Assembly: GCF_030149235.1 (NCBI RefSeq)
Contig: NZ_JASBRW010000014.1
Coordinates: forward strand, 62,001 to 126,000
Length of the DNA stretch: 64,000 nucleotides
Source of the DNA: Maricaulis sp.
GTDB lineage: Bacteria; Pseudomonadota; Alphaproteobacteria; Caulobacterales; Maricaulaceae
Direction of reading: 5' to 3'
Part shown: piece after piece, positions 22,821-38,979 of the stretch
How positions within the stretch are numbered: the stretch's first letter is position 1
How the letters are laid out: each line of letters begins with the position of its first letter
Notes under the pieces: model-generated
Seen by the model: only the letters and a program-made list of their open reading frames with translations
Told to the model about the DNA's origin: nothing
Database searches by the model: none
Made by a program: the position numbers and the translations under genes

Positions 22821-23231
22821 ATGTATCTCACCCGCCTGCTCTATTGCAGTGAACGTAATCCAGACCTTGATCTGGACATTGAGCAATTGCTCTACAGCGC
22901 ACGCGATTATAACGGACGTTCCAATATTACGGGCGCGCTCTGGTTTGACGGCACCTATTTCGTCCAGGTCCTTGAAGGCGGGCGTCAAGCCGTCAGCGAA
23001 ACCTATCATCGCATTGCCATGGACAAGCGGCACTACAAGATCGAACTGGTGTCCTGCGAGATGGTAGATGCCCGGTTGTTCCATCAATGGCGCATGGCCT
23101 ACTTCGCCGACACCGTCGATAACCGCTCGCTTATTCTCAAGTACTCAGGCCAGGACAAGCTCGACCCATCCGCGATGAGTGGCGCGTCATTGCTGCGCGT
23201 GCTCGCCGAAGGCAATCTTCTGGGTGACTAG
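22821..23231 (+). CDS. BLUF-domain blue-light photoreceptor
   Basis: A short FAD-binding light sensor of 136 residues. The key photochemical residues are all present: Y8 (LLYCS), N31 (DYNGRSNITG), Q49 (FVQVLEGG) and the W90/M92 pair (FHQWRMAYF). The C-terminal tail after about residue 100 is short and has no output domain, so it probably acts through a protein partner, as in other short BLUF proteins. AGGAGG lies about 10 bp ahead of the ATG. It is 80 bp after the M14 gene and 148 bp before kynA. Confidence 0.95.
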   Translation: MYLTRLLYCSERNPDLDLDIEQLLYSARDYNGRSNITGALWFDGTYFVQVLEGGRQAVSETYHRIAMDKRHYKIELVSCEMVDARLFHQWRMAYFADTVDNRSLILKYSGQDKLDPSAMSGASLLRVLAEGNLLGD

Positions 23232-23335: not shown

Positions 23336-23379
23336 GGCCCCGTCGATTCTGCCCGATGGGGAACGAGGGGATGAGCGCC

Positions 23380-24228
23380 ATGACCGACCATCAGAAGACG
23401 CAGGTCGATGTTTCCGACGAGGACATCCACTGGGATTTCGACAAGGCCATGTCCTATGGCCGCTATCTTGGGCTGGACCAGCTGCTCGATAGCCAGTCTC
23501 CTCTGACCAAGGAGCATGATGAAATGCTCTTCATCATCATCCACCAAGTCTCCGAGCTGTGGATGAAGCTGATGTTGCATGAGGTCGAGGGCGCTTCTGC
23601 TCACATTGCCCGCGACGAAGTGGGCCCTGCCCTGAAAATGTTTGCCCGGGTCTCGCGGGTCCAGGAACAGTTGATCAAGGCCTGGGACGTGCTGGCGACC
23701 ATGACGCCGAGCGATTATCTGGCCTTCCGCGACGATCTGGGACAGAGCTCCGGCTTCCAGTCCTACCAGTACCGCAGCCTTGAATACCGTCTGGGCAATA
23801 AGAATGCGGCGATGGCAAAGGTGCACCGCCACAATCCGCGGGCCTTTGAAATGGTGTCCAAGGCGTTGGAAAGCCCCAGCATCTGGGATGAAACCCTGGC
23901 CTTCCTGGCGCGTAAGGGCTACGCCATCCCCGCCGATCGGCTGGATCGCGACTGGCGCCAATCCTACAAGCCAAGCGAAGAGGTCGAGGCCACCTGGCGG
24001 CTGATCTACGAAGACAGCGACACGCACTGGGAAGCCTATGAGCTGGGTGAAAAACTCGTCGACCTGGAGCACAAATTCCAGCAATGGCGCTTCAATCACA
24101 TGAAAACGGTCGAACGCATCATCGGCTATCGCCGTGGCACCGGCGGCACTTCGGGTGTGGCCTATCTGGTCAAGGCGCTGGATCTGCACTTCTTCCCGGA
24201 GCTGTGGATGGTGCGCACGGCGCTTTAG
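23380..24228 (+). CDS. kynA: Tryptophan 2,3-dioxygenase
   Basis: Heme enzyme that opens the indole ring of L-tryptophan to N-formylkynurenine, the first step of the kynurenine route. With the ATG at 23380 it has 282 residues, and the heme-pocket histidines fall at H55 (FIIIHQVSELWMK) and H240 (FNHMKTVERIIGYRRGTGGTSG), the same numbers as in Xanthomonas TDO. GAGGGG lies about 9 bp ahead of this ATG. Two upstream in-frame ATGs (23356, 23371) have poorer spacing. First gene of kynA-kynB-kynU. Confidence 0.97.
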   Translation: MTDHQKTQVDVSDEDIHWDFDKAMSYGRYLGLDQLLDSQSPLTKEHDEMLFIIIHQVSELWMKLMLHEVEGASAHIARDEVGPALKMFARVSRVQEQLIKAWDVLATMTPSDYLAFRDDLGQSSGFQSYQYRSLEYRLGNKNAAMAKVHRHNPRAFEMVSKALESPSIWDETLAFLARKGYAIPADRLDRDWRQSYKPSEEVEATWRLIYEDSDTHWEAYELGEKLVDLEHKFQQWRFNHMKTVERIIGYRRGTGGTSGVAYLVKALDLHFFPELWMVRTAL

Positions 24229-24232
24229 AGCG

Positions 24233-24871
24233 ATGACAAAACTCTTTGATATCACTCAGGTTTTGCGACCCGGACTGCCGGTCTGGCCCAGCGATACGGA
24301 TTTTGCCCGCGCGGATAAATGGGTGATTGGGCCGGACTGTCCGGTAAAGGTCTCCAAGCTCACACTGTCGACCCATTCCGGCACCCATGCCGATGCCCCT
24401 GAGCATTATCATGAGGCCGGAAGCGACATCGCCGGCGTGGACCTCACCCCTTATCTCGGCCCCTGCGTCCTGGTCACCGCAAGCGGTCACGGCCCGGCCG
24501 TCACACCGGATGACATCGATATCGCGTCCGTTTCCGGTGCCGAACGCGTGTTGATCCGGACCTATTCCAGCTTTCCCCACGAGGCCTGGGACAGTGATTT
24601 CCGTGCGATTTCTGCTGTCCTTATCGAACATCTGGGGCAGACCGGCTGCCGCCTGATCGGTAGCGATGCGGCATCGCTTGATCCAGAGACTTCAAAAACG
24701 CTCGATGCCCACCATGCGGTCAGGCGACATGACATGCGTATCCTGGAAGGCCTCGTATTCGATGGTGTGCCGGATGGCCGTTATGAGCTGATCGCCCTGC
24801 CCCTTCCTATTGCCGATGCGGATGCCTCTCCCGTCCGCGCGATCCTTAGAGAGATAGCCGATGACGCCTGA
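24233..24871 (+). CDS. kynB: Kynurenine formamidase
   Basis: Metal-dependent cyclase-family hydrolase of 212 residues that converts N-formylkynurenine to kynurenine and formate. The signature HSGTHADAPEHYH (48-60) supplies the metal ligands. DAHHAVRRHDMRILEGL near the end is also typical. The ATG lies 4 bp after the kynA stop. The 3' end overlaps kynU by 11 bp. Confidence 0.96.
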   Translation: MTKLFDITQVLRPGLPVWPSDTDFARADKWVIGPDCPVKVSKLTLSTHSGTHADAPEHYHEAGSDIAGVDLTPYLGPCVLVTASGHGPAVTPDDIDIASVSGAERVLIRTYSSFPHEAWDSDFRAISAVLIEHLGQTGCRLIGSDAASLDPETSKTLDAHHAVRRHDMRILEGLVFDGVPDGRYELIALPLPIADADASPVRAILREIADDA

Positions 24872-26087
24872 TCAGATTGCCGAGCTGGACCGCGCGGACC
24901 CTCTGGCCAGTTTCCGCGACCGTTTCGATCTGCCTGATGGCGTGATCTATCTCGATGGCAACTCGCTGGGTGCCTTGCCGAAAGCCACGGCGGCGCGCGT
25001 GCAGAGCGTGGTGCGGGAGCAATGGGGCACGGATCTGATCCGGTCCTGGAACAGTCATGACTGGATCGGGGCACCGCGGCGTCTGGGCGACAAGATCGCA
25101 CGACTCATTGGCGCGGGTGCAGGTGAGGTGATTTGCGCCGATTCTACTTCGATCAACGTGTTCAAAGCATTGAGCGCCTGTCTTCAGCTGGCCCCTGAGC
25201 GTTCCACCATCCTTTCGGAGACCGGCAATTTTCCCACCGACGCCTATATGATGGAAGGTCTGTCCAAGCTCACAGACGGCCATGTGCAACAAAAACTCGT
25301 CGCCAGCGACGCGATTGCCGATCATCTCGACGACAATGTCGCGGCACTCCTTCTTACCCATACCCATTACAAGACCGGCCGCTTGCATGACATGTCGGCC
25401 CTGACCGCAGCGGCGCATGAAGCCGGCATCCCCGTGATCTGGGACCTGTCGCATTCGGCGGGCGCCATGCCGGTGGATCTCAATGCCTGCGGCGCCGACT
25501 TCGCGGTTGGGTGCGGCTATAAGTATCTCAATGGCGGTCCCGGCGCGCCGGCCTTCCTGTTCGCCGCCAAACGCCATCACGACAAGGTTTTCCCGGCCCT
25601 GTCCGGCTGGCTTGGCCATAAAGCGCCTTTCGCGTTCTCGGACCATTATGAAGCCGGCCATGGCATTGACCGCTTCCAGTGCGGTACGCCGGGCATATTG
25701 GGCATGGCCGCCCTGGAAGTCGGGCTCGATCTGATGCTTCACGCCGACATGCAGGCCATCCGGTCCAAGTCGCAAGCGCTGGGAGACCTCTTCATCGAGC
25801 GGGTCGAAGCCCGTTGTCCGCAGTTTGAGCTGGTGAGCCCGCGTGATTGCACTGGGCGGGGAAGCCAGGTCTCGATCGCCCACAAAGAGGGCTATGCCAT
25901 CATGCAGGCCCTGATCGATCGCGGCGTGATCGGGGATTTCCGCGCTCCGGATATCCTGCGCTTCGGTTTCACCCCGCTCTACACCCGTTTCCGTGATGCT
26001 GCCGATGCGGTCGACATTCTGGCGGACATTATGGCCCAGGACAGCTGGACGGCACCGCAATATGCCGTTCGTGGCGCTGTGACCTGA
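24861..26087 (+). CDS. kynU: Kynureninase
   Basis: PLP enzyme that cleaves kynurenine to anthranilate and L-alanine. Of 408 residues. Visible features are LDGNSLGALP at the N-terminus, phosphate-binding DSTSIN (94-99), D195 in WDLSHSAGA contacting the pyridine nitrogen, and the Schiff-base lysine K221 in GCGYKYLNGGPGAP. There is no kynurenine 3-monooxygenase or quinolinate gene in the window, so the pathway here should end at anthranilate. The next genes then take it up as the CoA thioester. Confidence 0.97.
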   Translation: MTPDQIAELDRADPLASFRDRFDLPDGVIYLDGNSLGALPKATAARVQSVVREQWGTDLIRSWNSHDWIGAPRRLGDKIARLIGAGAGEVICADSTSINVFKALSACLQLAPERSTILSETGNFPTDAYMMEGLSKLTDGHVQQKLVASDAIADHLDDNVAALLLTHTHYKTGRLHDMSALTAAAHEAGIPVIWDLSHSAGAMPVDLNACGADFAVGCGYKYLNGGPGAPAFLFAAKRHHDKVFPALSGWLGHKAPFAFSDHYEAGHGIDRFQCGTPGILGMAALEVGLDLMLHADMQAIRSKSQALGDLFIERVEARCPQFELVSPRDCTGRGSQVSIAHKEGYAIMQALIDRGVIGDFRAPDILRFGFTPLYTRFRDAADAVDILADIMAQDSWTAPQYAVRGAVT

Positions 26088-26115
26088 TCTGCCGTGACCT
26101 GAAAAGGAGTTTCCC

Positions 26116-28185
26116 GTGTTACCTGTGACTACAGACCTTCGCGACGATTGCCTTGTCATCACGGTCAACCACCCGCCCGTCAATGCGCTGTCTCACGCCG
26201 TGCGCGCTGGTCTGGTCGAGGCCCTCGCAACCGCTCGTCCGGGCATGCGGGCCGCCATCATCATCTGTGCCGGCCGCACCTTCTTTTCCGGCGCGGACAT
26301 TTCCGAGTTCGGCAAGCCGCCGCGGGCGCCCTCCCTGCCTGACGTGCTCGCTACAATTGAAGACTGCCCGATCCCGGTCATCGCCGCCATTCACGGCCAG
26401 GCGCTGGGCGGCGGTTTTGAAGTCGCCCTGAGTTGTGATTTCCGGGTCATGGAGGCCAAGGCCAAGGTGGGCCTGCCCGAGGTCAATCTCGGCCTCATTC
26501 CAGGTGCCGGTGGCACGCAGCGCACGCCGCGCCTGGGCGGTCTGGATATCGCCCTGCAGCTGGCCCTGAGCGGCAAGCCGATCCCGGCCCGCCTGGCGGT
26601 TGAGAAGGGCCTGGCCGACATGATCTGCCAGGATGATTTGCTCGCGGATGCCCTCGCCTTCTCCCATCGCGGTGACCTCGCCAAGCGTCGCGTCCGCGAT
26701 ATGCCGGCCCCGGATATGGACGAGACGGTATTTGAGCGCTGGAAAAACCATGCCGCAAAGCGCCAGCGCGGCCAGAACGCGCCGCAGGCGATTCTCGAGG
26801 CGGTGGAGGCTGCCACGGACCTTCCCTTCGACGAAGGCCTCGCCAAAGAGCGCGAACTGTTCAGCGGTCTCGTCGGCGGGGCCCAGTCCCGCGCGATGCG
26901 CCATCTTTTCTTTGCCGAACGCCTGTCCGGCAAGTTGGCCAATCCGGTGCAGGCCGAGCCGAAGCCCATCAATAGCATTGGCGTGGTGGGCGCCGGCACG
27001 ATGGGTGTGGGCATCGCCGCCTCGGCCCTGGCGGGCGGTTACGCGGTGGCCTTGTTTGACGCCAATCCCGACGCGCTGGCCAATGGCCGGGGCCGGATCG
27101 AGGGCATCATCAAGGGTGATGCCAAGAAGGGCCGGATTTCACCGGCCGAAGCGGACGATCGCCACAAGCGGTTGAGCGTGCTCGAGGACTGGTCGGGTTA
27201 TTCCGGCTGCGACCTGATCATTGAAGCCGTGTTCGAGGACATGGATGTCAAGAAAGAGGTTCTGGCCAAGATCGATACCGTCGCGCGTCCTGACGCCCTG
27301 ATCGCGTCGAACACCTCCTATCTCGACATCGACGCCCTGGCCGCCAGCATCTCCAATCCGGAGCGCGTGCTCGGCCTGCATTTCTTCAGCCCGGCGCATA
27401 TCATGCGCCTGCTGGAAATCGTGCGAGGCGCGCAAACCAGCGACGAAGCCCTGATGACGGCCCTCGCCCTCGCCAAGCGCATGCGCAAGGTGGGCGTGGT
27501 ATCCGGTGTCTGTCACGGTTTCATCGGCAACCGCATGCTCAGCGGTTATGGCCGCGAAGCCGGACTTTTGCTGCTCGAAGGCGCCTCTCCGGAGGAGATC
27601 GACAAGGCCCTGCTCGATTTCGGCATGCCGATGGGCCCTTTCGCCATGGGCGACATGGCCGGACTGGATATCGGCTATATGAACCGCAAGAAGCTCGACC
27701 CGGCCCTGTTCGAGGAACGCGCATCCCGCGTGCATGACCGCCTCGTCGAAGCTGGATGCAAGGGGCAGAAAACGGGCTCGGGCTTTTACACCTACGACCC
27801 GGAAACGCGGGCCGCATCGCCCAATCCCCTCGCTGACGAGATTATCGATCAGGTCCGCGCCGAAGCGCAGGTCACGCCGCGCTCGATCAGCGCCGAGGAA
27901 ATCGTTGAACGGTGTATCTTCGCCCTGATCAATGAAGGCGCCCAGCTACTTGGCGAGGGCATCGCCCAGCGCGGCAGTGATGTGGATGTCGTTTATGCCA
28001 ATGGGTATGGCTTCCCGCGCTATCGCGGCGGCCCGTTCTTCTATGCCGATGAGGTCGGGCTGGATCATGTGCTGGCGCGGATCAAAGCGTTCGGTCAGTC
28101 CGATCCGCGTTGGTGGACACCCTCCCCCTTACTGCAGACGCTTGCTGATACCGGCGGCCGATTGAGCACCTATACGCCGGAGTAA
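26116..28185 (+). CDS. Fused enoyl-CoA hydratase / 3-hydroxyacyl-CoA dehydrogenase
   Basis: FadB/FadJ-like bifunctional enzyme of 689 residues. The crotonase domain (about 1-190) retains both catalytic glutamate positions, in GGGFEVALSCDF and GLPEVNLGLIPGAGGTQR. The dehydrogenase NAD domain starts with VVGAGTMGVGIA (about 293-304) and carries SNTSYLDI and GLHFFSPAHIMRLLEI. Two C-terminal 3HCDH domains follow. GTG start with AAAAGGAG ahead. It follows kynU by 28 bp and probably serves the beta-oxidation-like steps after ring reduction, although fatty acid substrates are possible. Confidence 0.92.
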   Translation: MLPVTTDLRDDCLVITVNHPPVNALSHAVRAGLVEALATARPGMRAAIIICAGRTFFSGADISEFGKPPRAPSLPDVLATIEDCPIPVIAAIHGQALGGGFEVALSCDFRVMEAKAKVGLPEVNLGLIPGAGGTQRTPRLGGLDIALQLALSGKPIPARLAVEKGLADMICQDDLLADALAFSHRGDLAKRRVRDMPAPDMDETVFERWKNHAAKRQRGQNAPQAILEAVEAATDLPFDEGLAKERELFSGLVGGAQSRAMRHLFFAERLSGKLANPVQAEPKPINSIGVVGAGTMGVGIAASALAGGYAVALFDANPDALANGRGRIEGIIKGDAKKGRISPAEADDRHKRLSVLEDWSGYSGCDLIIEAVFEDMDVKKEVLAKIDTVARPDALIASNTSYLDIDALAASISNPERVLGLHFFSPAHIMRLLEIVRGAQTSDEALMTALALAKRMRKVGVVSGVCHGFIGNRMLSGYGREAGLLLLEGASPEEIDKALLDFGMPMGPFAMGDMAGLDIGYMNRKKLDPALFEERASRVHDRLVEAGCKGQKTGSGFYTYDPETRAASPNPLADEIIDQVRAEAQVTPRSISAEEIVERCIFALINEGAQLLGEGIAQRGSDVDVVYANGYGFPRYRGGPFFYADEVGLDHVLARIKAFGQSDPRWWTPSPLLQTLADTGGRLSTYTPE

Positions 28186-28223
28186 TCGGCCCTTCAGAAC
28201 AGGCCTTGCCTCGCCGCGCCCAG

Positions 28224-28241
28224 TTAGTTTAAGTCTAAAAT
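28224..28241 (+). promoter_or_regulatory. AT-rich candidate promoter/operator before the aminobenzoyl-CoA genes
   Basis: TTAG (28224-28227) and CTAA (28235-28238) form an imperfect inverted repeat, and TAAAAT (28236-28241) resembles a -10 box. It lies in the 74 bp gap before the monooxygenase/reductase gene and is a plausible site for the MarR protein encoded downstream. This is inference from position and composition. Confidence 0.3.
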
Positions 28242-28259
28242 AATAGCGGGAGGATGGCC

Positions 28260-30536
28260 ATGAAGATTGCGTGCCTTGGCGGCGGCCCAGCCGGCCTCTA
28301 CTTCGCGATTTCGATGAAGCTTCGCGATCCCGATTGCGAGATCGACGTCTATGAGCGCAATCGTCCCGGTGACACATTCGGATGGGGCGTGGTCTTCTCG
28401 GACCAGACCATGGAAAACCTGGCCGGCAATGACCCGGTCAGCGCCAAGGCGATCGGCGACAGTCTTGCCCATTGGGATGATATCGAGGTCCACTTCAAGG
28501 GCGAGGTTGAACGCTCTGGCGGGCACGGGTTTTGTGGCATCGGCCGCAAGCACCTGCTCAATCTGTTACATGACCGCGCGCGTGAACTCGATGTTGGCCT
28601 GCATTTCGAGACCGAGATCGATGCCGATCTGAGCCGGTTCGGTGATGCGGACATGATCGTAGCTTCGGACGGGCTCAACTCGAAGATCCGCCAGGCATTT
28701 GCCCCCACCTTCAGGCCCGACATCGAGACCCGCACCAATAAATTCGTCTGGCTGGGCACAGAAAAAGTCTTCGAGGCCTTCACCTTCATTTTCACCGAAA
28801 CCGAACATGGCTGGGTCTGGGCCCACGCCTATCGGTTCGATGACAACACTTCGACCTTCATTGTCGAGTGCGCGCCGGACACCTGGGCCGCGCTCGGCTT
28901 TGAGGAGATGGACCAGGACGAGACCTGCCGCGCGTGTGAGGCCTTGTTCGCGGACTGGCTGGATGGCCATGCGCTGATGTCGAATGCCCGCCACCTTCGC
29001 GGTTCGGCCTGGCTCAACTTTCCCCGGGTGCTGTGTGAAACGTGGGTGCACGAGAATGTCGTCCTGCTCGGAGATGCCGCCCACACCGCGCATTTCTCGA
29101 TCGGCTCCGGTACCAAGCTGGCCTTTGAGGACGCAATCATGCTGGCCGAGGTACTGACCTCGGCCGACAAGCCCATCGCGGAGGGGCTCAAGGACTATCA
29201 GGAAGCCCGCAAGGTCGAAGTGCTCAAGCTTCAAAGCGCAGCGCGAAATTCCACTGAATGGTTTGAGAATCTTGACCGTTATCTTGGCTTTGAGCCCAAG
29301 CAATTCGCCTATTCGCTGCTTACCCGCTCACAGCGCATCAGCCATGAAAACCTGCGCCTGCGGGATGAGGCCTGGCTGGCGGGCGTGGAACGCTGGTTCT
29401 GCGGCCAGGACCGGGCCCGCCCACCCATGTTTGCGCCATTCGAGATGCGCGAGATGCGGCTTGAAAACCGGGTCGTGGTCTCGCCGATGTGCATGTATTC
29501 CGCGCAGGACGGCACCCCCGACGCCTTTCACAAGGTCCATTACGGGGCACGCGCCATGGGCGGGGCTGGACTTGTCTATACCGAGATGACCGATGTCAGC
29601 CGTGACGGCCGGATCACGCCGGGATGCGCGGGTCTCTACAAGGATGAACACGTCGCAGCCTGGCGTGAGATCACCGATTTCGCTCACGCTCAGTCGGACG
29701 CCAAAATGGTTGTCCAGCTGTCTCATGCCGGTCGCAAAGGTTCGACCAAGCTCGGCTGGGAGGGCTATGACATGCCGCTTGATGAGGGCAATTGGACCCT
29801 CGTCGCGCCCTCTCCACTCCCCTGGGACACGGACAACCAGGTGCCGGCGGAAATGAGCCGAGCCGATATGGATGCGGTCAAGGCGGATTTCGTGGCGGCG
29901 ACCAAACGGGCCATCGAAGCCGGTTTCGACATGGTCGAACTGCATTGCGCTCACGGGTACCTGCTATCGAGCTTCCTGACCCCAATCTCCAACCAGCGCA
30001 GCGATGAGTATGGCGGCAGCCTGCAAGCCCGTCTCACTTACCCGCTCGAAGTCTTCGAGGCGATGCGCGCGGTCTGGCCGTCCGACCGCCCGATGGCGGT
30101 GCGGATCTCTGCCACTGACTGGCTCGGCGATGAGGGCGTAAGTGGCGAGGACAGCATAGCGATCGCCGCAGCTTTTTCTGATGCCGGCGCCGACCTGATC
30201 GATGTGTCCGCCGGCCAGACCAGCCCGCGCGCCCGGCCTGTCTATGGGCGCATGTTCCAGACCCCCTTCTCCGACCAGATCCGTAACCAGACCGGCTGCG
30301 CGACCATGGCGGTGGGCAATATTTTCGAACCGGACCACGTCAATTCGATTCTCGCCGCCGGGCGCGCCGATCTGGTCGCCCTGGCCCGGCCGCATCTGGC
30401 CGACCCGAACTGGACCCTGCGCGCCGCCGCCGAGCTCGGCTATCGTGGTGTCCGCATCCCTCCACAGTATGAGGCCGGGTTCGAGCAACTCGCCCGCAAT
30501 CTTCAACGCGCCCAGCAAATGGAGCTGAAAGCATGA
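28260..30536 (+). CDS. Fused 2-aminobenzoyl-CoA monooxygenase/reductase (ACMR-like)
   Basis: Two-domain flavoenzyme of 758 residues. The N-terminal half (about 1-380) is an FAD monooxygenase with GGGPAG (7-12), an [11 protein letters not shown] block and [24 protein letters not shown]. The C-terminal half (about 390-750) is an old-yellow-enzyme reductase with [28 protein letters not shown] and [28 protein letters not shown]. This fusion is characteristic of 2-aminobenzoyl-CoA monooxygenase/reductase, described in Azoarcus evansii, and of salicylyl-CoA 5-hydroxylases. ACMR makes 2-amino-5-oxocyclohex-1-enecarboxyl-CoA. The kyn genes favour that role. The ATG at 28260 has GGGAGG at better spacing than the ATG at 28254. 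Confidence 0.92.
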
Positions 30537-31291
30537 CCACCCTGCAAGGCCGTCGCGCCGTGATCACTGGTGGAGGCACCGGTATTGGCCTCGCTTGCGC
30601 CCGCGACATCGCGGCCCAGGGCGCCGAGGTAATCCTCATGGCTCGCAATCTGGAGCGGCTGCAACAGGCCGCCAGCGAGATCAGTGGCGCCCGCGCCGTG
30701 CAGCTGGATGTCACCGAGGATGCCAGCGTCGAAGCCGCCTTCACCGAGGCGCGTGAGGGCGGCACAATCGACATCCTGATCAATAATGCCGGCATTGCGG
30801 CCGCTTCGGCCTTTCACAAGACCACGATCGAGGAATGGCGGCGCATCCAGGCGGTCAATGTCGAAGGCCTTGTGCGTTGTTCGCTCGCGGTCGTCGACGA
30901 TATGCGCAAGGCGGACTATGCCCGGATCGTCAATATTGCCTCCATCGCAGGCCTTCGCGGCGGGGCCTATATCAGCCCCTATGTGGCCTCCAAGCATGCT
31001 GTCGTGGGACTGACCAAATCGCTGTCACTGGAATATGCCCACACACAGCTCACCGTGAATGCGATCTGCCCAGGCTATGTCGACACCGCCATCGTCGACA
31101 ATTCCATCGCCAATATCATGGCCAAGACCGGGCGTTCGCGCGAGGAGGCCCTCGCCGAGCTGACCAAAAACAACCCGCAGGGACGGTTGATCACGCCGGA
31201 AGAGGTAGCCGAGGCCGTGACCTGGCTGTGTTCGCCCCTCTCCGCCTCGGTCTCCGGCCAGGCGATCATGGTCTCCGGCGGAGCCATCTGA
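30533..31291 (+). CDS. SDR family oxidoreductase (3-hydroxyacyl-CoA dehydrogenase-like)
   Basis: Short-chain dehydrogenase of 252 residues. It has the cofactor motif TGGGTGIG near the N-terminus, NNAG (about 83-86), and the catalytic YVASK with the preceding serine in [12 protein letters not shown]. Its ATGA overlap with the monooxygenase/reductase suggests translational coupling. In this cluster it likely oxidises or reduces an alicyclic hydroxy/oxo-acyl-CoA intermediate. The exact substrate is inferred from context. Confidence 0.9.
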
Positions 31292-31773
31292 TGCCGGAAC
31301 GGCCGGACACTTATCAGGATCGTGATGCGGTCCGGCTCTGGCTGCAAATCTATCAGACCACGAGCCTGATCGAACAACGCATCCGGTCGCGGCTGAGCCA
31401 GGAATTCGGTGTCAGCCTCGCCCGCTTCGATTTGCTGTCTGCCCTGGTCCGTGAGGACAAGCCCATGACAATGGGCGCGCTGTCGCGCCGGCTTCTGGTC
31501 AGTAATGGCAATGTCACCGGTCTGATTTCCCGCCTGGTCGAGGACGGCCTGGTGACGCGTAATCCGGATCCGCAAGACCGCCGGGTCATGGTGATCGAGC
31601 TGACGGCGCAGGGACGGCGCGATTTCACCCGCATGGCCGAGGCTCATGCCGGTTGGCTCAATGAATTCATCGGTCAGATCGATCCGGCCTTGACCCACCG
31701 CCTGCGCGACGATCTCGTCGCGCTGCGGCGCAGCCTTCACCCCAATGAGGACGAGCAAGCTGATGCAAGCTGA
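31291..31773 (+). CDS. MarR family transcriptional regulator
   Basis: Winged-helix regulator of 160 residues. The recognition region is [31 protein letters not shown], and the wing carries [18 protein letters not shown], the MarR DxRxxxxxLT signature. The ATG forms TGATG with the SDR stop, and the 3' end overlaps the next gene. Members of this family often sense aromatic acids or their CoA thioesters, so this is the likely local controller of the aminobenzoyl-CoA genes. The AT-rich repeat at 28224-28241 is a possible target. Confidence 0.93.
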
Positions 31774-32572
31774 GACCTATTCCCCCGAACATTTCCTGTG
31801 GCAGTTCGATAACGGCGTCGCGACCATCACGCTGAACCGTCCGGACCGGAAAAACCCTCTGACTTTCGAGAGCTATGCCGAGCTGCGCGATCTCTATCGC
31901 GAGCTCGTCTATTGCCGCGATGTCAAAGCCCTCATCCTGACCGGCGCGGGTGGAAATTTCTCTTCCGGCGGAGATGTGCACGACATTATCGGGCCCCTGG
32001 TCGAAATGGACATGCCGCAATTGCTCGATTTCACGCGCATGACCGGAGATCTGGTCAAGGCCATGCGCGCCTGTCCGCAGCCCATCATTGCGGCCATCGA
32101 CGGCGTTTGCGTGGGCGCCGGCGCAATCATGGCGATGTCCTCAGACCTGCGGATCGCCACGCCGGAGGCCAAGACCGCTTTCCTGTTCAACCGCGTCGGC
32201 CTGGCCGGCTGTGATATGGGCGCATGTGCGATCCTGCCCCGCATTATCGGTCAGGGCCGCGCCTCGGAACTGTTGTTCTTCGGGCGCTCCATGAGTGCTG
32301 AGGAAGGCCTGAACTGGGGCTTTTTCAACGCCGTGATTGAGGCGGGCGCGCTGATGGATGAAGCGCGCAAATGGGCTGAGCGCATCAATGCCGGCCCGAA
32401 TTTCGCCAATGCCATGACCAAGAACCAGCTCAACATGGAATGGGATATGAGCCTCGAGGCAGCCATCGAGGCGGAGGCCCAGGCCCAGGCCATCTGTATG
32501 CAGACGCGCGATTTCGAACGCGCCTATCGCGCCTTCGTCGCCAAGGAAAAACCCGTATTCGAGGGTGATTAA
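31763..32572 (+). CDS. Crotonase-family enzyme (enoyl-CoA hydratase-like)
   Basis: Crotonase-fold protein of 269 residues. It shows [11 protein letters not shown] (oxyanion hole) and [19 protein letters not shown]. The stretch that in hydratases contains the general base PE(V/I)xxGLIPGAGG reads [21 protein letters not shown], so the usual glutamate is missing and an aspartate appears in GCDMG. The family includes dehalogenases, hydrolases and isomerases, so hydration is not assured. It overlaps the marR end. ATG 31763 is preferred to ATG 31745 because GAGG lies at workable distance. Confidence 0.88.
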
Positions 32573-32575
32573 TCC

Positions 32576-33748
32576 ATGGATAGCAGCTTTCTCAACTGGC
32601 CCTTCTTCTCAGACGATCACCGCGCCGTGGCCGAGACTGTGCGCGGTTTCGCTGCCGAGGTATTCGGCGAGACCGGTTTCGATCATCATGGTGATATCGA
32701 CGAGGAATGCGCCGAGATCCGCCGCCAGCTGGGCGCTGCGGGCCTGACCCGGTATTGCGTGCCGCGTGAGTATGGCGGCGCGAAGGACCAGCTCGATGTG
32801 CGCTCCCTCTGCCTTATCCGAGAGAGCCTCGCCTACCGGTCCGGCCTGGCAGATTTCGTCTTTGCCATGCAGGGGCTCGGGTCCGGGGCGATCAGCCTGT
32901 TCGGAAATGCGCATCAGAAATCCCGCTATCTGCCCGGCGTCGGATCGGGAGATCTCTGCGCCGCCTTCGCGTTGACCGAGCCGGAGGCCGGTTCCGACGT
33001 GGCCGCGATCGCGACGGAAGCGCGCCTCGACCAGGGCGAATGGGTGATCAGCGGGGAAAAGACCTATATCTCCAATGGCGGTATCGCGGACGTCTATGTC
33101 CTGTTTGCCCGCAGCGAGGATGTCCAGGGCGCCCGTGGTCTATCGGCCTTTATCATCCAAGCCGATGACCCCGGGCTGGAAATCGTTGAACGGATCGACA
33201 CCATAGCCCCCCACCCCCTCGCCCGCCTGCGTTTCAACGGGATGCGCATACCGGCTGACCGGCTGATCGCCGAGCGCGGCCAGGGCTTCAAGATTGCCAT
33301 GGCGACGCTGGACGTGTTCCGCTCCACCGTCGGGGCGGCCTCCCTCGGCTTTGCCCGGCGCGCACTGGATGAAGCGACCCGCCGGGCCCAGACCCGGGAA
33401 TTGTTTGGCTCCAGCCTTGCTGATCTGCCCGGCGTGCAGACCCAGCTGGCCGAGATGGCGCTGGATATCGATACCAGTGCCTTGCTGATCTACCGCGCGG
33501 GCTGGGCCAAAGACAGCGGCGCCCCGCGGATCACGCGCGAGGCGGCGATGGCCAAGCTGCACGCGACAGAGACCGCCCAACAGGGCATCGACAAGGCGGT
33601 GCAGATCTTTGGCGGCCTCGGGGTCACCAAGGGCTCGGTACCGGAAGCACTGTACCGGGAGGTCCGGGCGCTGCGCATCTATGAAGGGGCCTCGGAAGTC
33701 CAGAAACTGGTGATCGCGCGCCAGCACCTGGCCAGTGGAGCGCGCTGA
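32576..33748 (+). CDS. Acyl-CoA dehydrogenase
   Basis: FAD flavoprotein of 390 residues. It has [12 protein letters not shown] (flavin/substrate loop), [54 protein letters not shown] with the probable catalytic glutamate in IYEGASE. It sits 3 bp after the crotonase and overlaps the thioesterase start by 1 bp. By context it would dehydrogenate a cyclic or ring-opened acyl-CoA derived from 2-aminobenzoyl-CoA. Confidence 0.93.
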
Positions 33749-34158
33749 TGTTCCGCGCCCGTCGCCAGATCCGCTTCGCAGATGTCGACCCGGCCGGGAT
33801 CGTCTTCTATCCGCGCTATTTCGAGATGATCAACGCAACCGTCGAGGACTGGTTCGAACATATCGGATACGGCTTCGCGGACATGATCCGGCGCGATGGT
33901 TATGGCGTGCCGCTGGCGACGATCGAGGTGGATTTCAAACGCCCGAGCGAACTCGATGACTGGCTGGACTTTACGCTGGACGTAAAAGCCCTGGGCAGCA
34001 GCTCCATCCAGGTCGACATCACGGCCCGCTGCGGCGAAGAAATCCGGCTGATCGCCCGTCCGGTTCTGGTTTTCGTCAAGACCGAAGCCACCCGTCCGGT
34101 CCGCATACCCGACGCCTTACGAGAAAAAATCGAGCACTATCAGCGAGGTCAGGCATGA
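33748..34158 (+). CDS. Acyl-CoA thioesterase, 4-hydroxybenzoyl-CoA thioesterase type
   Basis: Hot-dog fold protein of 136 residues. The motif RFADVDPAGIVFYPRYFEM closely follows the catalytic-aspartate segment of Pseudomonas-type 4-hydroxybenzoyl-CoA thioesterase (D in DVDPAG). It may rescue CoA from dead-end aryl or alicyclic thioesters of the pathway. One-base overlap with the acyl-CoA dehydrogenase stop and four-base overlap with the Rid gene indicate tight operon packing. Confidence 0.92.
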   Translation: MFRARRQIRFADVDPAGIVFYPRYFEMINATVEDWFEHIGYGFADMIRRDGYGVPLATIEVDFKRPSELDDWLDFTLDVKALGSSSIQVDITARCGEEIRLIARPVLVFVKTEATRPVRIPDALREKIEHYQRGQA

Positions 34159-34547
34159 TACATTTACAGCCACCAGGCTGGCCCCGTCCGAAGGGCTATT
34201 CCAATGGCATTGTCGCGGATGGCCAACTCGTCTTTGTTGCCGGCCAGATCGGCTGGGACGAAACCGAAGCGCTGGTGTCCGATGATTTCGCGGAACAGTT
34301 CGAACAGGTCCTGGTCAACACGCTGGCTGTGCTCAAGGAAGCCGGCGCCGGGCCTCAGCACATTGTCCGGATGACCGGCTATGTCACGGACAAGCAGGAG
34401 TATCTCGGCGCCCTCAGGGCGGTGGGAGAGATCTGGAAACGCCATATCGGTCGCAATTACCCGGTCATGGCCTTTCTGGAGGTCCAGGCCCTGATTGAAG
34501 ACCGGGCCAAGATCGAGATCGAAACCACCGCGGTTATACCGCGCTAA
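34155..34547 (+). CDS. Rid (YjgF/YER057c) family protein without the RidA arginine
   Basis: A 130-residue Rid-fold protein. It has PKGYSNGIVADGQLVFVAGQIGWD and TVKIEIE-like KIEIETTAV at the C-terminal strand. The residue matching catalytic Arg105 of RidA is not arginine: the local sequence is NYPVMAFLEVQAL where RidA has PARSCVEVARL. This places it with Rid groups that lack that arginine. Position in the aminobenzoyl-CoA operon suggests handling of the enamine/imine intermediate that must lose ammonia, but generic RidA activity should not be assumed. Confidence 0.9.
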   Translation: MIHLQPPGWPRPKGYSNGIVADGQLVFVAGQIGWDETEALVSDDFAEQFEQVLVNTLAVLKEAGAGPQHIVRMTGYVTDKQEYLGALRAVGEIWKRHIGRNYPVMAFLEVQALIEDRAKIEIETTAVIPR

Positions 34548-34582
34548 CCCATCGCTTCGTCGCAGCCATCGGGGAGGATGTC

Positions 34583-36211
34583 ATGACGATGATCGAAAGC
34601 GGCCATATCGACAGCTTCACGCGGGATCATCTCCCGCCGATGGAGCAATGGCCGGAATTCCGTTTTGACCAGGAAGACCTGGCTTATCCCGAGCGTCTCA
34701 ATGCGGCCGGGGTGCTGCTCGATGGCGCGGTCGCCAATGGCTATGGTGACAAGACTGCGATCATCACACCGAGCCGTCGGATCAGCTATCGGGACCTGTT
34801 GGAGCAGGCCAATCGCATCGCCAACTACCTGACCCGCGAGCTCGGTATCGTCCCCGGCAATCGGGTCTTGCTGCACGGGTTCAATTCCATCGAGCTATCC
34901 GCCGCCTGGTTCGCCGTCATCAAGACCGGTGCAGTCGCGGTCACGACCATGCCGATGCTGCGGGCCGCCGAGCTGTCAAAAATCACCAGCAAGGCCGACG
35001 TTGATATCGCGCTCTGCGATGTCGGCCTTCTCGAGGTCGTGGAGGAAACAGCGACCTTGACCGGCAAGTTGAGGACGATTGCAGCCTGGGGAGACGGTGG
35101 CGCGCTGGACCGCGCCCTGCCCGAAATGTCGACCAATTTCGTCAATGCCGACACGGCCCGGGATGATGTTGCGCTATTGGCGTGTACGTCCGGTACAACA
35201 GGTGAGCCAAAGGCCTGTGCCCATTTTCACTCCGCCATTCTGGCCATGGCCGACACCTTCGGCCGGCACACACTGGCCCCCGAGGCGGACGAGATCTACA
35301 CCGGCACCCCGCCGCTGGCTTTTACCTTCGGGCTCGGCGCCTTCCTTGTCTTTCCGGCCCGCTTCGGTCTGACGGTGGCGCTGCCGGAGCGGCCCGGCTT
35401 TGAAGCGCTTTGCGAAACCATTGAGGCCTGCAAGGCGACGACGGTTTTCACCGCGCCCACAGGATATCGCGCCATGATGGGACTTTGGCAGGATTATGAT
35501 CTGTCATCCCTGCGCAAGGCGGTCTCAGCGGGGGAGCACCTGCCCCAGGCGACATCGGATGAGTTTCATGCCCGCACGGGACTGCGGCTGATCGACGGTA
35601 TTGGTGCAACCGAGATGATCCACATCTTCATCTCCGCTTCCGGATCCCTGATTCGGCCCGGAGCGACGGGGCAAGCGGTACCGGGATATCAGGCTGAATT
35701 GCTCGATGATGCCGGCCAGCCCGTGCCGGAGGGGGAAATCGGACGCCTCGCCCTGAAAGGTCCAACCGGCTGCCTCTATCTCGATGATGAGCGCCAGAAA
35801 ACCTATGTCCAGAAGGGCTGGAACTTGACCGGTGACCTCTACCGCCGTGATGCCGAGGGTTATTATTGGTACGTCTCCCGCGCCGACGATCTGATCGTGT
35901 CCTCGGGCTATAACATCGCCGGTCCGGAGGTCGAGCAGGCCTTATTAAGCCATGATGCAGTCGCGGAAACGGCCGTGATTGGCGAAGCCGATCAGGAGCG
36001 CGGCGCCATCATCAAAGCTTTCGTCGTCCTGGCGCAGGGGTGGTCCGGGAACGCGGACCTCGTCGCTGAACTGCAAACCCATGTGAAGTCTGAGATTGCG
36101 CCTTACAAATATCCGCGCGACATCGAGTTTATCGATCAGTTGCCCAAGACACAGACCGGCAAAATTCAGCGTTTCAAACTGCGCCGCGAGGCGATAAGTC
36201 TCGATCACTGA
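34583..36211 (+). CDS. Aryl-CoA ligase, probable 2-aminobenzoate-CoA ligase
   Basis: ANL-family adenylate-forming enzyme of 542 residues. It carries the P-loop ACTSGTTGEPKACAHFH, IGATEMIHIF (A5), LTGDLYRRDAEGYYWYVSRADDLIVSSGYNIAGPEVE (A7/A8) and the A10 lysine in PKTQTGKIQRFKLR. Overall form matches benzoate/2-aminobenzoate-CoA ligases. It would activate the anthranilate released by KynU. GGGGAGG precedes the ATG at 34583. Other aryl acids cannot be excluded. Confidence 0.92.
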   Translation: MTMIESGHIDSFTRDHLPPMEQWPEFRFDQEDLAYPERLNAAGVLLDGAVANGYGDKTAIITPSRRISYRDLLEQANRIANYLTRELGIVPGNRVLLHGFNSIELSAAWFAVIKTGAVAVTTMPMLRAAELSKITSKADVDIALCDVGLLEVVEETATLTGKLRTIAAWGDGGALDRALPEMSTNFVNADTARDDVALLACTSGTTGEPKACAHFHSAILAMADTFGRHTLAPEADEIYTGTPPLAFTFGLGAFLVFPARFGLTVALPERPGFEALCETIEACKATTVFTAPTGYRAMMGLWQDYDLSSLRKAVSAGEHLPQATSDEFHARTGLRLIDGIGATEMIHIFISASGSLIRPGATGQAVPGYQAELLDDAGQPVPEGEIGRLALKGPTGCLYLDDERQKTYVQKGWNLTGDLYRRDAEGYYWYVSRADDLIVSSGYNIAGPEVEQALLSHDAVAETAVIGEADQERGAIIKAFVVLAQGWSGNADLVAELQTHVKSEIAPYKYPRDIEFIDQLPKTQTGKIQRFKLRREAISLDH

Positions 36212-36231
36212 ACCGGGAAAAGGAGTGCGGC

Positions 36232-36498
36232 ATGCGTCAATTCTACGTTTTCATCAAATGTGAGCTCGGTCGCACCTACGACGTCGCCGCATCGCTGGTC
36301 GACAATCTCGATGAAGCGCCGATGGTGCATTCCATCTCCGGTGCGTTCGACCTCCTTGCTCACTTTTCTCTCAATGATGACGCGGACATCGGCCGGTTTG
36401 TTAATCAAAAGGTTCAAACAATTTCCGGCATCAAGGACACGCAGACCATCATCTGTTTCAATGCTTTCACCCGCGATCGCGGCCTCGGTGACGGCTAG
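36232..36498 (+). CDS. Stand-alone RAM (Lrp/AsnC ligand-binding) domain protein
   Basis: An 88-residue protein that consists only of the C-terminal RAM domain of Lrp/AsnC regulators (MRQFYVFIKCELGRTYDVAASLVDN, VHSISGAFDLLAHFSL, ISGIKDTQTIICFN) with no DNA-binding helix-turn-helix. AAAAGGAG lies ahead of the ATG. It sits between the aryl-CoA ligase (20 bp) and sdaA (17 bp). Such proteins bind small amino acids or related ligands and can modify full-length regulators or enzymes. Confidence 0.9.
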   Translation: MRQFYVFIKCELGRTYDVAASLVDNLDEAPMVHSISGAFDLLAHFSLNDDADIGRFVNQKVQTISGIKDTQTIICFNAFTRDRGLGDG

Positions 36499-36515
36499 GC
36501 CGGGCGACATTTCTG

Positions 36516-37901
36516 ATGCATTTCGGCGTATTTGACCTGTTCAAGATCGGAATCGGGCCCTCGAGCTCGCACACCGTCGGACCGATGAAGGCGGGCAAGC
36601 GCTTCGTCGAGCGGGCGCTTGAGAAGGTCCGGGACGGAGGCCTTATCCGGCTTGAATGTGAACTCTATGGCTCGCTGGCGCTGACCGGCCTGGGCCATGG
36701 CACCAATACAGCCGTCCTGCTCGGCCTGGAGGGGCACGACCCGGCTCAGATCGACCCGGACACCATCGAGCCCCGCCTCGCCCGCATTCGCAGTGATAAG
36801 ACGCTGCACCTCGCCAATGGTGATGTGATCGAGTTCGACGAAAAAAAACATCTCGACTTCCGCGGTGAGGTTCGCCTGCCCTTCCACTCAAACGCCATGA
36901 AGTTCCGCGCCATCGGCCCGGGCGAACAACTCGTCCTCGAGGAAATCTGGTATTCGATCGGTGGAGGCTTCGTCATTGATGAGCACGAGGCCGGCCGCAA
37001 TTCCGCAGCCGATGTGAAGGAAGGCGAGCCCTACCCGTTCAACTCGGCAGCGGAACTGCTTGAAATCGGCGAGAAGACCGGCCTGTCCATCCATCGTATC
37101 ATGCTGGCCAATGAACGCGCCTTCCTGCCCGAGGACACGATCCGGGCGGGCATTGAAGGCCTTTGGCGCACGATGGAGGACTGTATCGACCGCGGCCTGG
37201 CCCAGGATGGCATCCTGCCCGGCGGGCTGCAGGTCAAGCGTCGCGCGCCACAGATGTACAAAGACATCAAGGCCACCCCGGTGTCGCCGGAGGAAGATCC
37301 TTTGGCGCCTATGGACTGGATCAATCTCTGGGCTATGGCGGTGAATGAAGAGAACGCCGCGGGTGGCCGCGTTGTCACCGCTCCGACCAATGGTGCAGCG
37401 GGCATTATTCCCGCCGTCGCACGTTATTTTGATCGCTATCACCGCGACCCGGACGATGAAGAAGCGTTGCAGCGCTTCTTCCTGACGGCGGCCGCGATTG
37501 GTGCGCTGTACAAGAAAAACGCCTCTATTTCGGGGGCTGAAGCCGGCTGTCAGGGGGAAGTGGGCGTCGCCTGTTCCATGGCGGCGGGTGCCCTGGCTGC
37601 CGCCATGGGCGCCAACAATCACCAGATCGAGGATGCCGCCGAGATCGGCATGGAGCACAATCTCGGCCTGACCTGCGACCCGGTGGGCGGGCTGGTTCAG
37701 ATCCCTTGTATCGAACGCAATGCCATCGGCGCGATCAAGGCGATCGATGCGGCCCGGCTGGCCTTGCGGGCCACCTCATCTGACATGAAGGTGTCTCTGG
37801 ACCAGGTCATCGAGACCATGCGCCAGACCGGTCTCGACATGATGGAAAAATACAAAGAGACCAGCCAGGGCGGGCTCGCAGTGAATGTGGTGGAGTGTTA
37901 G
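36516..37901 (+). CDS. sdaA: L-serine ammonia-lyase (iron-sulfur, single chain)
   Basis: Converts L-serine to pyruvate and ammonia. At 461 residues it is the fused beta-alpha form. The beta domain begins FDLFKIGIGPSSSHTVGPMKAGKRF. The alpha domain has NGAAGIIPAVARYFDRYH, SGAEAGCQGEVGVACSMAAGALAAAMG and LTCDPVGGLVQIPCIERNA, with the cysteines expected to hold the 4Fe-4S cluster. It may be cotranscribed with the RAM gene. It meets the efflux adaptor gene tail to tail with a 4 bp overlap. Confidence 0.95.
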   Translation: MHFGVFDLFKIGIGPSSSHTVGPMKAGKRFVERALEKVRDGGLIRLECELYGSLALTGLGHGTNTAVLLGLEGHDPAQIDPDTIEPRLARIRSDKTLHLANGDVIEFDEKKHLDFRGEVRLPFHSNAMKFRAIGPGEQLVLEEIWYSIGGGFVIDEHEAGRNSAADVKEGEPYPFNSAAELLEIGEKTGLSIHRIMLANERAFLPEDTIRAGIEGLWRTMEDCIDRGLAQDGILPGGLQVKRRAPQMYKDIKATPVSPEEDPLAPMDWINLWAMAVNEENAAGGRVVTAPTNGAAGIIPAVARYFDRYHRDPDDEEALQRFFLTAAAIGALYKKNASISGAEAGCQGEVGVACSMAAGALAAAMGANNHQIEDAAEIGMEHNLGLTCDPVGGLVQIPCIERNAIGAIKAIDAARLALRATSSDMKVSLDQVIETMRQTGLDMMEKYKETSQGGLAVNVVEC

Positions 37902-38962
37902 GCGTCCTCGCCCTGGGTCTGCACCGCCCGTCCATCACTGAGGGTTTCCGCCCCGGAGACCACGACCGTCTGACCGGCCTCCACATCGCCCTCGATGGCG
38001 ATATAGCCGCCTGAGCGAACACCGGGCTGCACTGTGATCTGACGGGCGATGTCGTCATCCCCCACCACAAAGATATGACTCCCATTGGCGCGCAGGATAA
38101 CGGCGTCATACGGGACAGTGAGCTGGGTCCGCGGCGTTTCGGCCGGGAAAGACGCCCGCGCCGCCGAACCGACTATCCAGCCTGTTTCGGCCAGGTCGAT
38201 CCGGACCTCGAAAGTGCGCGAGACGCGATCACCGACAGGAACAATCGCCCGGATCGGCGCGCGGATCTCCTGATCATCACTCCCGGTCATGGTGATCTCC
38301 TGCCCGACGCTGAGATAGGGGGCGATGGATACAGGCGCCTGGGCGACGGCCTCCTTGCGGGACACATCGACGAAACGGACGACTTCCCGCCCCGGCGAGG
38401 ATAATTCGCCGACTTCGATCAGGCGCTCAACCACGCGGCCGGTGAACGGGGCGCGGATCCGCGTCCGGTCAAGATCGAGCTCGGCGCGGGAGACGGCGGA
38501 GCGCGCTTCACGCAGATCGAGGGCTGCGAGATCGCGGGCCAGCTCGGCCTCACGCAAGCGCGTGGGCGGCACGGTGCCATTAGCTGCCAACTGTGTAAAA
38601 CGTTCGGCCTCGGCGTTCTGGTAAGAGGAATTCGCACTGGCGCGGGACAGGCGCGCGCGGGCTTCCTCCAGCTGGATACGCGCCTGCCGGTCATCGATCT
38701 GGGCGATGACATCGCCGCTTTCCACCACATCGCCCGGCTCGGCGATTACCGTCACCCGGCCGGTTGTCTCGGCCGAAATACGGGCATCATTGCGGGAGAT
38801 CACACTGGCCGGCGAGGTAATGGTGCGCGACATCAGACGCGAGTCGATCTCGGCCACGCGGACCGTAGCAGGCGGTGGGCCGCCCTGGGCCTGCGCGGCA
38901 CTGAAGCCGGAAGCCGCAACGACAGCGGAAATGAGGGTGATGACAGCGGTGTGGCGGAACAT
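37898..38962 (-). CDS. RND efflux periplasmic adaptor (MFP)
   Basis: Membrane fusion protein of 354 residues. Signal peptide about 1-25 (SAAQAQ). Barrel-sandwich halves (ARISAETTGRVTVIAEPGDVVESGDVIAQID and RIRAPFTGRVVERLIEVGELSSPG) flank a coiled-coil hairpin (about 92-165), then a beta-barrel and membrane-proximal domain. It lies 17 bp downstream of the RND permease, the reverse of the usual adaptor-first order. No outer-membrane TolC-type channel is in the window. Confidence 0.93.
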   Translation of the reverse strand: MFRHTAVITLISAVVAASGFSAAQAQGGPPPATVRVAEIDSRLMSRTITSPASVISRNDARISAETTGRVTVIAEPGDVVESGDVIAQIDDRQARIQLEEARARLSRASANSSYQNAEAERFTQLAANGTVPPTRLREAELARDLAALDLREARSAVSRAELDLDRTRIRAPFTGRVVERLIEVGELSSPGREVVRFVDVSRKEAVAQAPVSIAPYLSVGQEITMTGSDDQEIRAPIRAIVPVGDRVSRTFEVRIDLAETGWIVGSAARASFPAETPRTQLTVPYDAVILRANGSHIFVVGDDDIARQITVQPGVRSGGYIAIEGDVEAGQTVVVSGAETLSDGRAVQTQGEDA

Positions 38963-38979
38963 GGAACATCCCCTCCGGA

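Follow-up and report, generated by a model that had tools for sequence, protein, structure and literature searches.

The locus described here raises the question of what becomes of the anthranilate that a kynurenine pathway would produce. It lies in a 64,000-nucleotide stretch of the Maricaulis sp. assembly GCF_030149235.1 (contig NZ_JASBRW010000014.1, positions 62,001 to 126,000), which we call the window, and consists of a run of 14 plus-strand genes, kynA through sdaA at 23356-37901, delimited by reading frames and profile matches. Between kynU and a gene for a RAM-domain protein stands a cassette that resembles the abm genes of 2-aminobenzoyl-CoA degradation. We read the run as a tryptophan catabolic operon that would proceed via anthranilate and anthraniloyl-CoA, with predicted lower steps and with the cassette lying inside an operon kynABU-RAM-sdaA, and we put the probability of this reading at about 0.8. 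The genes, in their order, are as follows.

23356..24228, plus strand: kynA, tryptophan 2,3-dioxygenase (TIGR03036, 408.8 bits, cut-off 390.7; alternative start 23380)
24233..24871, plus strand: kynB, arylformamidase (TIGR03035, 243.6 bits, cut-off 223; ATG placed from the translation)
24861..26087, plus strand: kynU, kynureninase (TIGR01814, 314.9 bits, cut-off 246.4)
26116..28185, plus strand: FadJ-like bifunctional enoyl-CoA hydratase/3-hydroxyacyl-CoA dehydrogenase, with which the abm cassette opens (PF00378, PF02737, PF00725; FadJ models below cut-off)
28254..30536, plus strand: fused flavoenzyme of the 2-aminobenzoyl-CoA monooxygenase/reductase type (ACMR), with FAD monooxygenase (PF01494) and old yellow enzyme (PF00724) domains (NF006101, 1294 bits, cut-off 1078)
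30533..31291, plus strand: SDR-family reductase (3-hydroxybutyrate dehydrogenase and FabG-like models, below cut-offs)
31291..31773, plus strand: MarR-family regulator (PF12802, 53.5 bits; PF01047, 43.8 bits)
31745..32572, plus strand: crotonase of the PRK08258 family (NF006107, 491 bits, cut-off 330; alternative start 31763)
32576..33748, plus strand: acyl-CoA dehydrogenase (models for acryloyl-CoA reductase and cyclohexane-1-carbonyl-CoA dehydrogenase come nearest, neither reaching its cut-off)
33748..34158, plus strand: hot-dog thioesterase of the YbgC/4-hydroxybenzoyl-CoA thioesterase type (PF13279, 52.8 bits; solved relatives include 1bvq, 4-hydroxybenzoyl-CoA thioesterase)
34155..34547, plus strand: Rid-family protein whose residue in the column of RidA Arg105 is Met (PF01042, 86.7 bits; alignments)
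34583..36211, plus strand: aryl-CoA ligase, probably anthranilate (2-aminobenzoate)-CoA ligase (TIGR02262, 383.5 bits, cut-off 375)
36232..36498, plus strand: stand-alone RAM (Lrp/AsnC ligand-binding) domain protein of 88 aa (PF01037, 41 bits, cut-off 25)
36516..37901, plus strand: sdaA, L-serine ammonia-lyase (TIGR00720, 658.6 bits, cut-off 345)

NCBIfam cut-offs are passed by KynA, KynB, KynU, the flavoenzyme, the crotonase, the ligase and SdaA, and Pfam cut-offs by the RAM, Rid, thioesterase, MarR and FadJ-like proteins; the NCBIfam matches of the SDR, acyl-CoA dehydrogenase, FadJ-like, thioesterase and Rid proteins stay below cut-off. The genes that the initial annotation had named are therefore where it placed them and all on one strand, but its list had passed over the MarR-family gene. 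It had also described overlaps of 1-11 bp. Overlaps do occur at 6 of the 13 junctions (1, 1, 4, 4, 11 and 11 or 29 bp, the last depending on the crotonase start), while the other seven have gaps of 3-68 bp, the 68 bp gap being the one ahead of the flavoenzyme gene. Despite the seven gaps, a single operon of 14 genes would be the natural reading. Signal searches between 22700 and 38300 gave 9 terminator-like sites against 10.3 +/- 2.9 in shuffled sequences, which is no excess, and 1 sigma-70-like site against 4.1, which is fewer than shuffled, so that a promoter could not be located within this interval.

Whether the cassette belongs with the kyn genes can be asked of close relatives. We used a sample of 299 genomes of the order, 13 of them from the same genus (genomes are labelled G and loci or stretches L; G000, the window's own assembly, is among the 13). 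Kynureninase is found in all 13 and the flavoenzyme in 8, and in 4 of those 8 the two lie within 15 kb of each other. The cassette from the FadJ-like gene to the ligase gene stands between kynU and the RAM gene in the window, L004, L117 and L118, and also in L124, there without FadJ and MarR matches. All 14 genes keep an identical order in L004 (Maricaulis sp., 79-96% identity), L117 and L118. Given this recurrence of the 14-gene order, most of which is found in L124 as well, the arrangement is more than chance. The same order, with a BLUF gene in front, is seen in Maricaulis sp. BWSM_11, whose flavoenzyme is 90% identical to that of the window.

The host operon also exists on its own. In G054, G113, G123, G188 and G158, kynA-kynB-kynU-RAM-sdaA is contiguous with no cassette genes between; the flavoenzyme is encoded elsewhere in the first four and is missing from G158. 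The abm cassette thus sits inside an operon kynABU-RAM-sdaA that occurs without it as well. SdaA and the RAM protein, which the initial annotation had cited in support of a full tryptophan catabolic unit, were rejected as members of the cassette, as both still come after kynU in genomes that lack the cassette or carry it at another place. G049, G068 and G143 have kynA, kynU and sdaA matches and no kynB or RAM match nearby, and the G103 contig is only 6 kb long. In G148 and G009, from another genus of the family, FadJ and SDR genes lie between kynU and the RAM gene, and the block of flavoenzyme, crotonase, acyl-CoA dehydrogenase, Rid and ligase genes is located elsewhere with no SDR match beside it. 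The SDR of these kyn operons is 58-59% identical to the window's. Since FadJ and SDR sit there in the kyn operon apart from the flavoenzyme block, both appear tied to kyn function. NCBIfam models matched none of the four frames in the gaps of L124 and L163 at E 1e-15.

In the flavoenzyme tree the genus stays in one group (support 100/99). The linked state needs two changes on this tree, which may be a gain plus a loss or else two separate gains; therefore an old linkage with later splitting and two separate joinings are both possible. The KynU tree has weak support.

The upper part of the route is assigned by homology. KynA, KynB and KynU occur together, each above its curated cut-off, and would yield anthranilate and alanine. 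In the window's assembly (2.76 Mb in 87 contigs, about 90% complete) no kynurenine 3-monooxygenase was recognised, although a model specific for that enzyme was not run, there was no match for 3-hydroxyanthranilate dioxygenase, and the best score for anthranilate 1,2-dioxygenase was 83 bits against a cut-off of 672. Besides the flavoenzyme, the assembly has one strong FAD_binding_3 match, which is UbiH-like by eye. The ligase would convert anthranilate to anthraniloyl-CoA, and the flavoenzyme would hydroxylate and reduce this to 2-amino-5-oxocyclohex-1-ene-carbonyl-CoA, both steps being known from Azoarcus evansii and assigned here by homology. Among solved chains the anthranilate-CoA ligase 4wv3 comes first for the window ligase (293 bits), ahead of benzoate-CoA ligases (270 and 258). 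The window ligase and flavoenzyme are each 51% identical to their counterparts on plasmid pAL1 of Arthrobacter sp. Rue61a. An Arthrobacter ligase expressed in E. coli was active on anthranilate (PMC3534580), and the pAL1 ligase is taken to be that enzyme, judged from its position beside the flavoenzyme. The window ligase is probably an anthranilate-CoA ligase, and it is from such likenesses that we infer the specificity of both enzymes.

To see which other genes go with the flavoenzyme, we compared 118 flavoenzyme loci from several phyla. Of these, 80 were the best of 162 relatives, 35 were stretches taken from the order's 66 genomes with flavoenzyme, and 3 were plasmids. One contig is represented twice, as L005 and as L115, and many contigs end near the flavoenzyme gene, so absences have to be read as lower bounds. 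The neighbours are crotonase at 107 loci, SDR at 97, acyl-CoA dehydrogenase at 95, Rid at 87, MarR at 86, ligase at 83 and thioesterase at 59. The enzymes that the initial annotation called unexplained are therefore not special to this cluster. These counts come from targeted queries; an all-against-all clustering of neighbours for any further shared pathway gene was uninformative, being swamped by antisense frames in GC-rich DNA.

The Rid subtype and the crotonase family stand out as close partners of the flavoenzyme. Over the 299 genomes, counted with relatedness ignored, a Rid match at E 1e-12 is present in 64 of the 66 genomes with flavoenzyme and in 3 of the 233 others (62 and 2 at E 1e-30). 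The flavoenzyme genomes lacking it are G204 and G281, both on short contigs (L187, L188), and the Rid genomes lacking flavoenzyme are G246, with Rid, thioesterase and ligase at a contig end, G134, with a lone Rid, and G163, with a weak hit. We aligned 84 Rid rows (at least 44% identity and 80% coverage) with the window and pAL1 proteins, 86 in all. Tyr15 and Glu121 are found in 86 of 86. The Arg105 column, which is conserved in imine-hydrolysing RidA/Rid1-3, holds Met in 85 and Ile in 1, the Met being present in the distant pAL1 protein too. The window Rid thus shares with the described family its profile match and the conserved Tyr and Glu, and differs in having Met for Arg105 (PMC4433059). 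The aligned residue is Thr in one and Gly in the other of the two further Rid-family proteins found in the assembly (L183, L184), the second aligning loosely; as neither has the Arg, an ordinary RidA is not seen in this 90%-complete genome.

In RidA the Arg binds the substrate carboxylate, and its change to Ala nearly abolishes imine hydrolysis (PMC4433059). Since a CoA thioester has no such carboxylate, a Rid that acts on 2-amino-5-oxocyclohex-1-ene-carbonyl-CoA might show loss of the Arg. The replacement might therefore fit a Rid acting on a CoA-thioester enamine, but a loss of activity can also be read from the same facts. A CoA ester of C7H8O4, found only in anthranilate-grown Arthrobacter and regarded by its authors as possibly cyclohexanedione-carboxyl-CoA (PMC3534580), is what such a Rid step would be expected to give. 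A literature search for Rid/YjgF with CoA esters had no CoA-ester paper among the matches listed.

The crotonase (E 1e-60, at most 8 candidates scored per genome) occurs in 64 of the 66 flavoenzyme genomes and in none of the 233 others, the two without a match being G204 and G216. In an alignment of 103 sequences, the window and 102 rows (at least 44% identity and 80% coverage), Asp157 is invariant and aligns with an Asp of 4fzw chain C, the 1,2-epoxyphenylacetyl-CoA isomerase PaaG. The hydratase Glu columns were matched through the crotonase motif, the catalytic pair of the rat enzyme being E144 and E164; the first column is Phe in 103 of 103, whereas at the second 90 sequences have Glu and 13 have Asp. 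With Phe at the first Glu column and Asp157 invariant, the PRK08258 crotonase lacks one of the two Glu of an enoyl-CoA hydratase and is unlikely to be an ordinary one. Its nearest solved chain, 3g64, is a putative hydratase only, and the nearest families with a named reaction, PaaG isomerase and alternative oxepin-CoA hydrolase, are both below cut-off.

Putting these pieces together, we propose that the remaining enzymes fill the missing lower steps. The Arg-less Rid would hydrolyse the ring enamine to 2,5-dioxocyclohexane-carbonyl-CoA and ammonia, the SDR would reduce a ring or chain ketone, and the Asp-bearing crotonase would open or isomerise the ring. Beta-oxidation by the acyl-CoA dehydrogenase, by the FadJ-like enzyme and by a thiolase encoded elsewhere could then complete the route, while the thioesterase may release CoA from dead-end or end products; the MarR protein probably regulates the cassette. 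A sequence of Rid deamination, ketone reduction, hydrolytic opening to 4-oxo- or 4-hydroxypimelyl-CoA and beta-oxidation would fit the gene set. A more specific version, in which the Met-bearing Rid is a dedicated CoA-thioester enamine hydrolase, the PRK08258 crotonase then hydrolyses 2,5-dioxocyclohexane-carbonyl-CoA to 4-oxo- or 4-hydroxypimelyl-CoA, and beta-oxidation gives acetyl-CoA together with a C5 acid resembling 2-oxoglutarate or 2-hydroxyglutarate, is unlikely. If true, it would provide a substrate for a type of Rid that had been described as without known function (PMC4433059).

Linkage of the flavoenzyme to kyn genes is not confined to the genus. With 40% identity as the lower limit, kyn genes are found at 22 of the 118 loci: 4 Maricaulis-like, 2 further ones of the same family, 3 from other Alphaproteobacteria, 7 from Burkholderiales, 3 from unplaced Proteobacteria metagenome-assembled genomes (MAGs), 2 from Meiothermus and 1 from an Anaerolineae MAG. 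In Burkholderiales these genes run divergently from the flavoenzyme gene, and in Meiothermus they lie downstream of it on the same strand. Genes for a tryptophan 2,3-dioxygenase and for a hydrolase are divergent from the flavoenzyme gene in Ruegeria pomeroyi DSS-3. In this species a cupin gene (L148:17541-17993) follows the acyl-CoA dehydrogenase gene, at the position of the window's thioesterase.

Despite this there are several observations that speak against our reading. Across the order the association is weak: kynureninase is present in 33 of the 66 flavoenzyme genomes and in 83 of the 233 without (Fisher p = 0.045, relatedness uncorrected), and the two genes lie within 15 kb in 7 of the 33 genomes having both. 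As only half of the flavoenzyme genomes have kynureninase, the cassette occurs without it too. The initial claim of a full tryptophan catabolic unit is supported, by homology, for the path from tryptophan through anthranilate to anthraniloyl-CoA and is helped by the recurring kyn linkage; a tight tie between kyn and abm genes is not supported. FadJ (12 of 118 loci), thioesterase (59) and thiolase (11) are optional neighbours. The ligase scores only 125 bits with 5oe3, another solved anthranilate-CoA ligase, and it passes the benzoate-CoA ligase family model TIGR02262 (383.5 versus 375), which the pAL1 ligase misses (338 versus 375). Rid subfamilies without the Arg are believed not to hydrolyse imines (PMC4433059), and the Arg is held to determine deaminase activity (PMC5619798). 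In G216 (L142), a single-contig genome listed as 100% complete, the flavoenzyme is present but no crotonase is matched, and the Rid match is weak and distant; a different use of the flavoenzyme is possible there. The assembly's three thiolases above the general thiolase cut-off are not PcaF-like, leaving it without a PcaF-class thiolase.

How far such points carry depends on the alternative they would favour. That the cassette serves salicylyl-CoA or another ortho-substituted benzoyl-CoA, and stands among the kyn genes by chance, we regard as very improbable. It would account for the benzoate-type match of the ligase, for the half of the order's flavoenzyme genomes that have no kynureninase match, and for the name of NF006101, bifunctional salicylyl-CoA 5-hydroxylase/oxidoreductase. 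This name was rejected as substrate evidence, because the pAL1 flavoenzyme carries it as well (1229 bits in the same family) and adjoins the ligase reported to be active on anthranilate (PMC3534580). A Rid protein, pointless without nitrogen, would also hardly be expected in 64 of 66 flavoenzyme genomes, and neither the kyn linkage in several lineages nor the nearness of the ligase to 4wv3 agrees with chance placement. Somewhat less improbable, yet still not likely, is that kyn and abm genes are separately transcribed neighbours and that abm serves anthranilate from indole, quinolines or uptake. The cassette has its own MarR gene and a 68 bp gap ahead of the flavoenzyme, and abm occurs without kyn in many genomes. 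All genes share one strand with gaps of at most 68 bp, however, terminator-like sites were not found in the kynU-FadJ and FadJ-flavoenzyme gaps, and the cassette lies within the kyn operon rather than alongside it.

The tryptophan operon reading is compatible with a third alternative, which concerns one step only. The Rid could be mere damage control of stray enamines, deamination being spontaneous or due to, for example, the crotonase. This is a tentative possibility, and of the three alternatives the one we take most seriously. The Arg needed for imine hydrolysis is missing, and the flavoenzyme product is unstable below pH 5 (PMC3534580). On the other side, Rid-family deaminases act in other aromatic pathways, for example on 2-aminomuconate (PMC6449761), and the co-occurrence of Rid with the flavoenzyme, together with one conserved Met in 85 of 86 proteins, suggests a dedicated substrate.

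The window has the fused flavoenzyme, and beta-oxidation-type enzymes, MarR and Rid genes in one cluster, as is typical of abm. The abm clusters of A. evansii (Schuhle et al. 2001) reportedly hold the ligase, the flavoenzyme, beta-oxidation enzymes, a MarR protein and a YjgF protein, a set outlined already in 2001. By this gene content, the ligase (in the window probably an anthranilate-CoA ligase), fused monooxygenase/reductase, beta-oxidation-type enzymes, MarR and YjgF/Rid are common to both; the window adds kynABU in front, RAM and sdaA behind, the FadJ-like gene and the thioesterase, and has no transporter binding protein gene among its 14. Phaeobacter is said to degrade tryptophan via kynurenine to 2-aminobenzoate and then as A. 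evansii does, with the genes scattered on the chromosome (Druppel et al. 2014). The fullest kyn-abm block outside the genus is that on plasmid pMaD4 of Marinovum algicola DG 898. Like the window, it has tryptophan 2,3-dioxygenase, kynureninase, 3-hydroxyacyl-CoA dehydrogenase, flavoenzyme, SDR, MarR, crotonase, acyl-CoA dehydrogenase, ligase, thioesterase and Rid; unlike the window, it has the dehydrogenase gene reversed, an esterase/lipase gene, a thiolase, and no KynB, RAM or sdaA match. Its thiolase exceeds the PcaF cut-off (605 versus 597), which fits a dicarboxylyl-CoA intermediate. The pAL1 locus shares a probable anthranilate ligase beside the flavoenzyme and a Rid with the same Met, and differs in being fed by quinaldine, in its PaaX-type regulators and in having no SDR, crotonase or acyl-CoA dehydrogenase annotated in the 45 kb examined.

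The general idea is not new, as the abm gene set is known and the route from tryptophan via anthranilate to anthraniloyl-CoA has already been named in print. The 2-aminobenzoyl-CoA pathway of A. evansii has been described (PMC4539516, PMC8388817), and a genome reconstruction of Cupriavidus metallidurans CH34 assigns both abm and kyn genes, in text that, unlike the arrangement in the window, does not place them in one operon (PMC8879955). On the lower pathway, the relevant passage of a 2015 review says that beta-oxidation enzymes follow and nothing more (PMC4539516), and a 2022 pathway-curation paper states that tryptophan degradation via this enzyme was omitted for lack of knowledge (PMC9007349). 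The open-licence literature, in the portions at hand, has no description of a kyn-abm operon or of a Rid role in it. What we add is the nesting of the cassette in the kyn operon, the survey of kyn linkage, the co-occurrence of crotonase and Rid with the flavoenzyme, the Met-for-Arg Rid and the Asp-bearing crotonase. The comparison narrows the candidates for the lower pathway to a few genes, and the single operon predicted here would offer the whole route from tryptophan to the lower pathway for testing.

A few further features were noted on the way. A second flavoenzyme clade in the order (L133-L140, L145-L147) does not reach the family cut-off, its full-length hits scoring 958-1024 bits, and is about 45-48% identical to the window's flavoenzyme, the L145 match being broken. 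A crotonase of 73-77% identity is found in 10 of its 11 stretches and a Rid of 52-61%, while a ligase of at least 50% identity is missing from 10 of the 11; the clade possibly stands for another substrate or a replaced oxygenase. The G216 flavoenzyme mentioned above exceeds the family cut-off and is accompanied by MarR and thioesterase matches.

At the borders of the run, a gene for a BLUF blue-light sensor (22821-23231, plus strand; PF04940) lies directly upstream of kynA. BLUF matches upstream of kynA were also seen in L004, in L169 at about 0.7 kb and in L162 at about 2.8 kb, whereas the stretches around ten further kyn loci of the genus had none; a conceivable candidate function is that light controls kynurenine formation. 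At the other end (37898-42060, minus strand), the last 4 bases of sdaA are shared with a convergent gene for an RND adaptor (TIGR01730, 208 bits), and the larger frame behind it is RND pump-like by eye.

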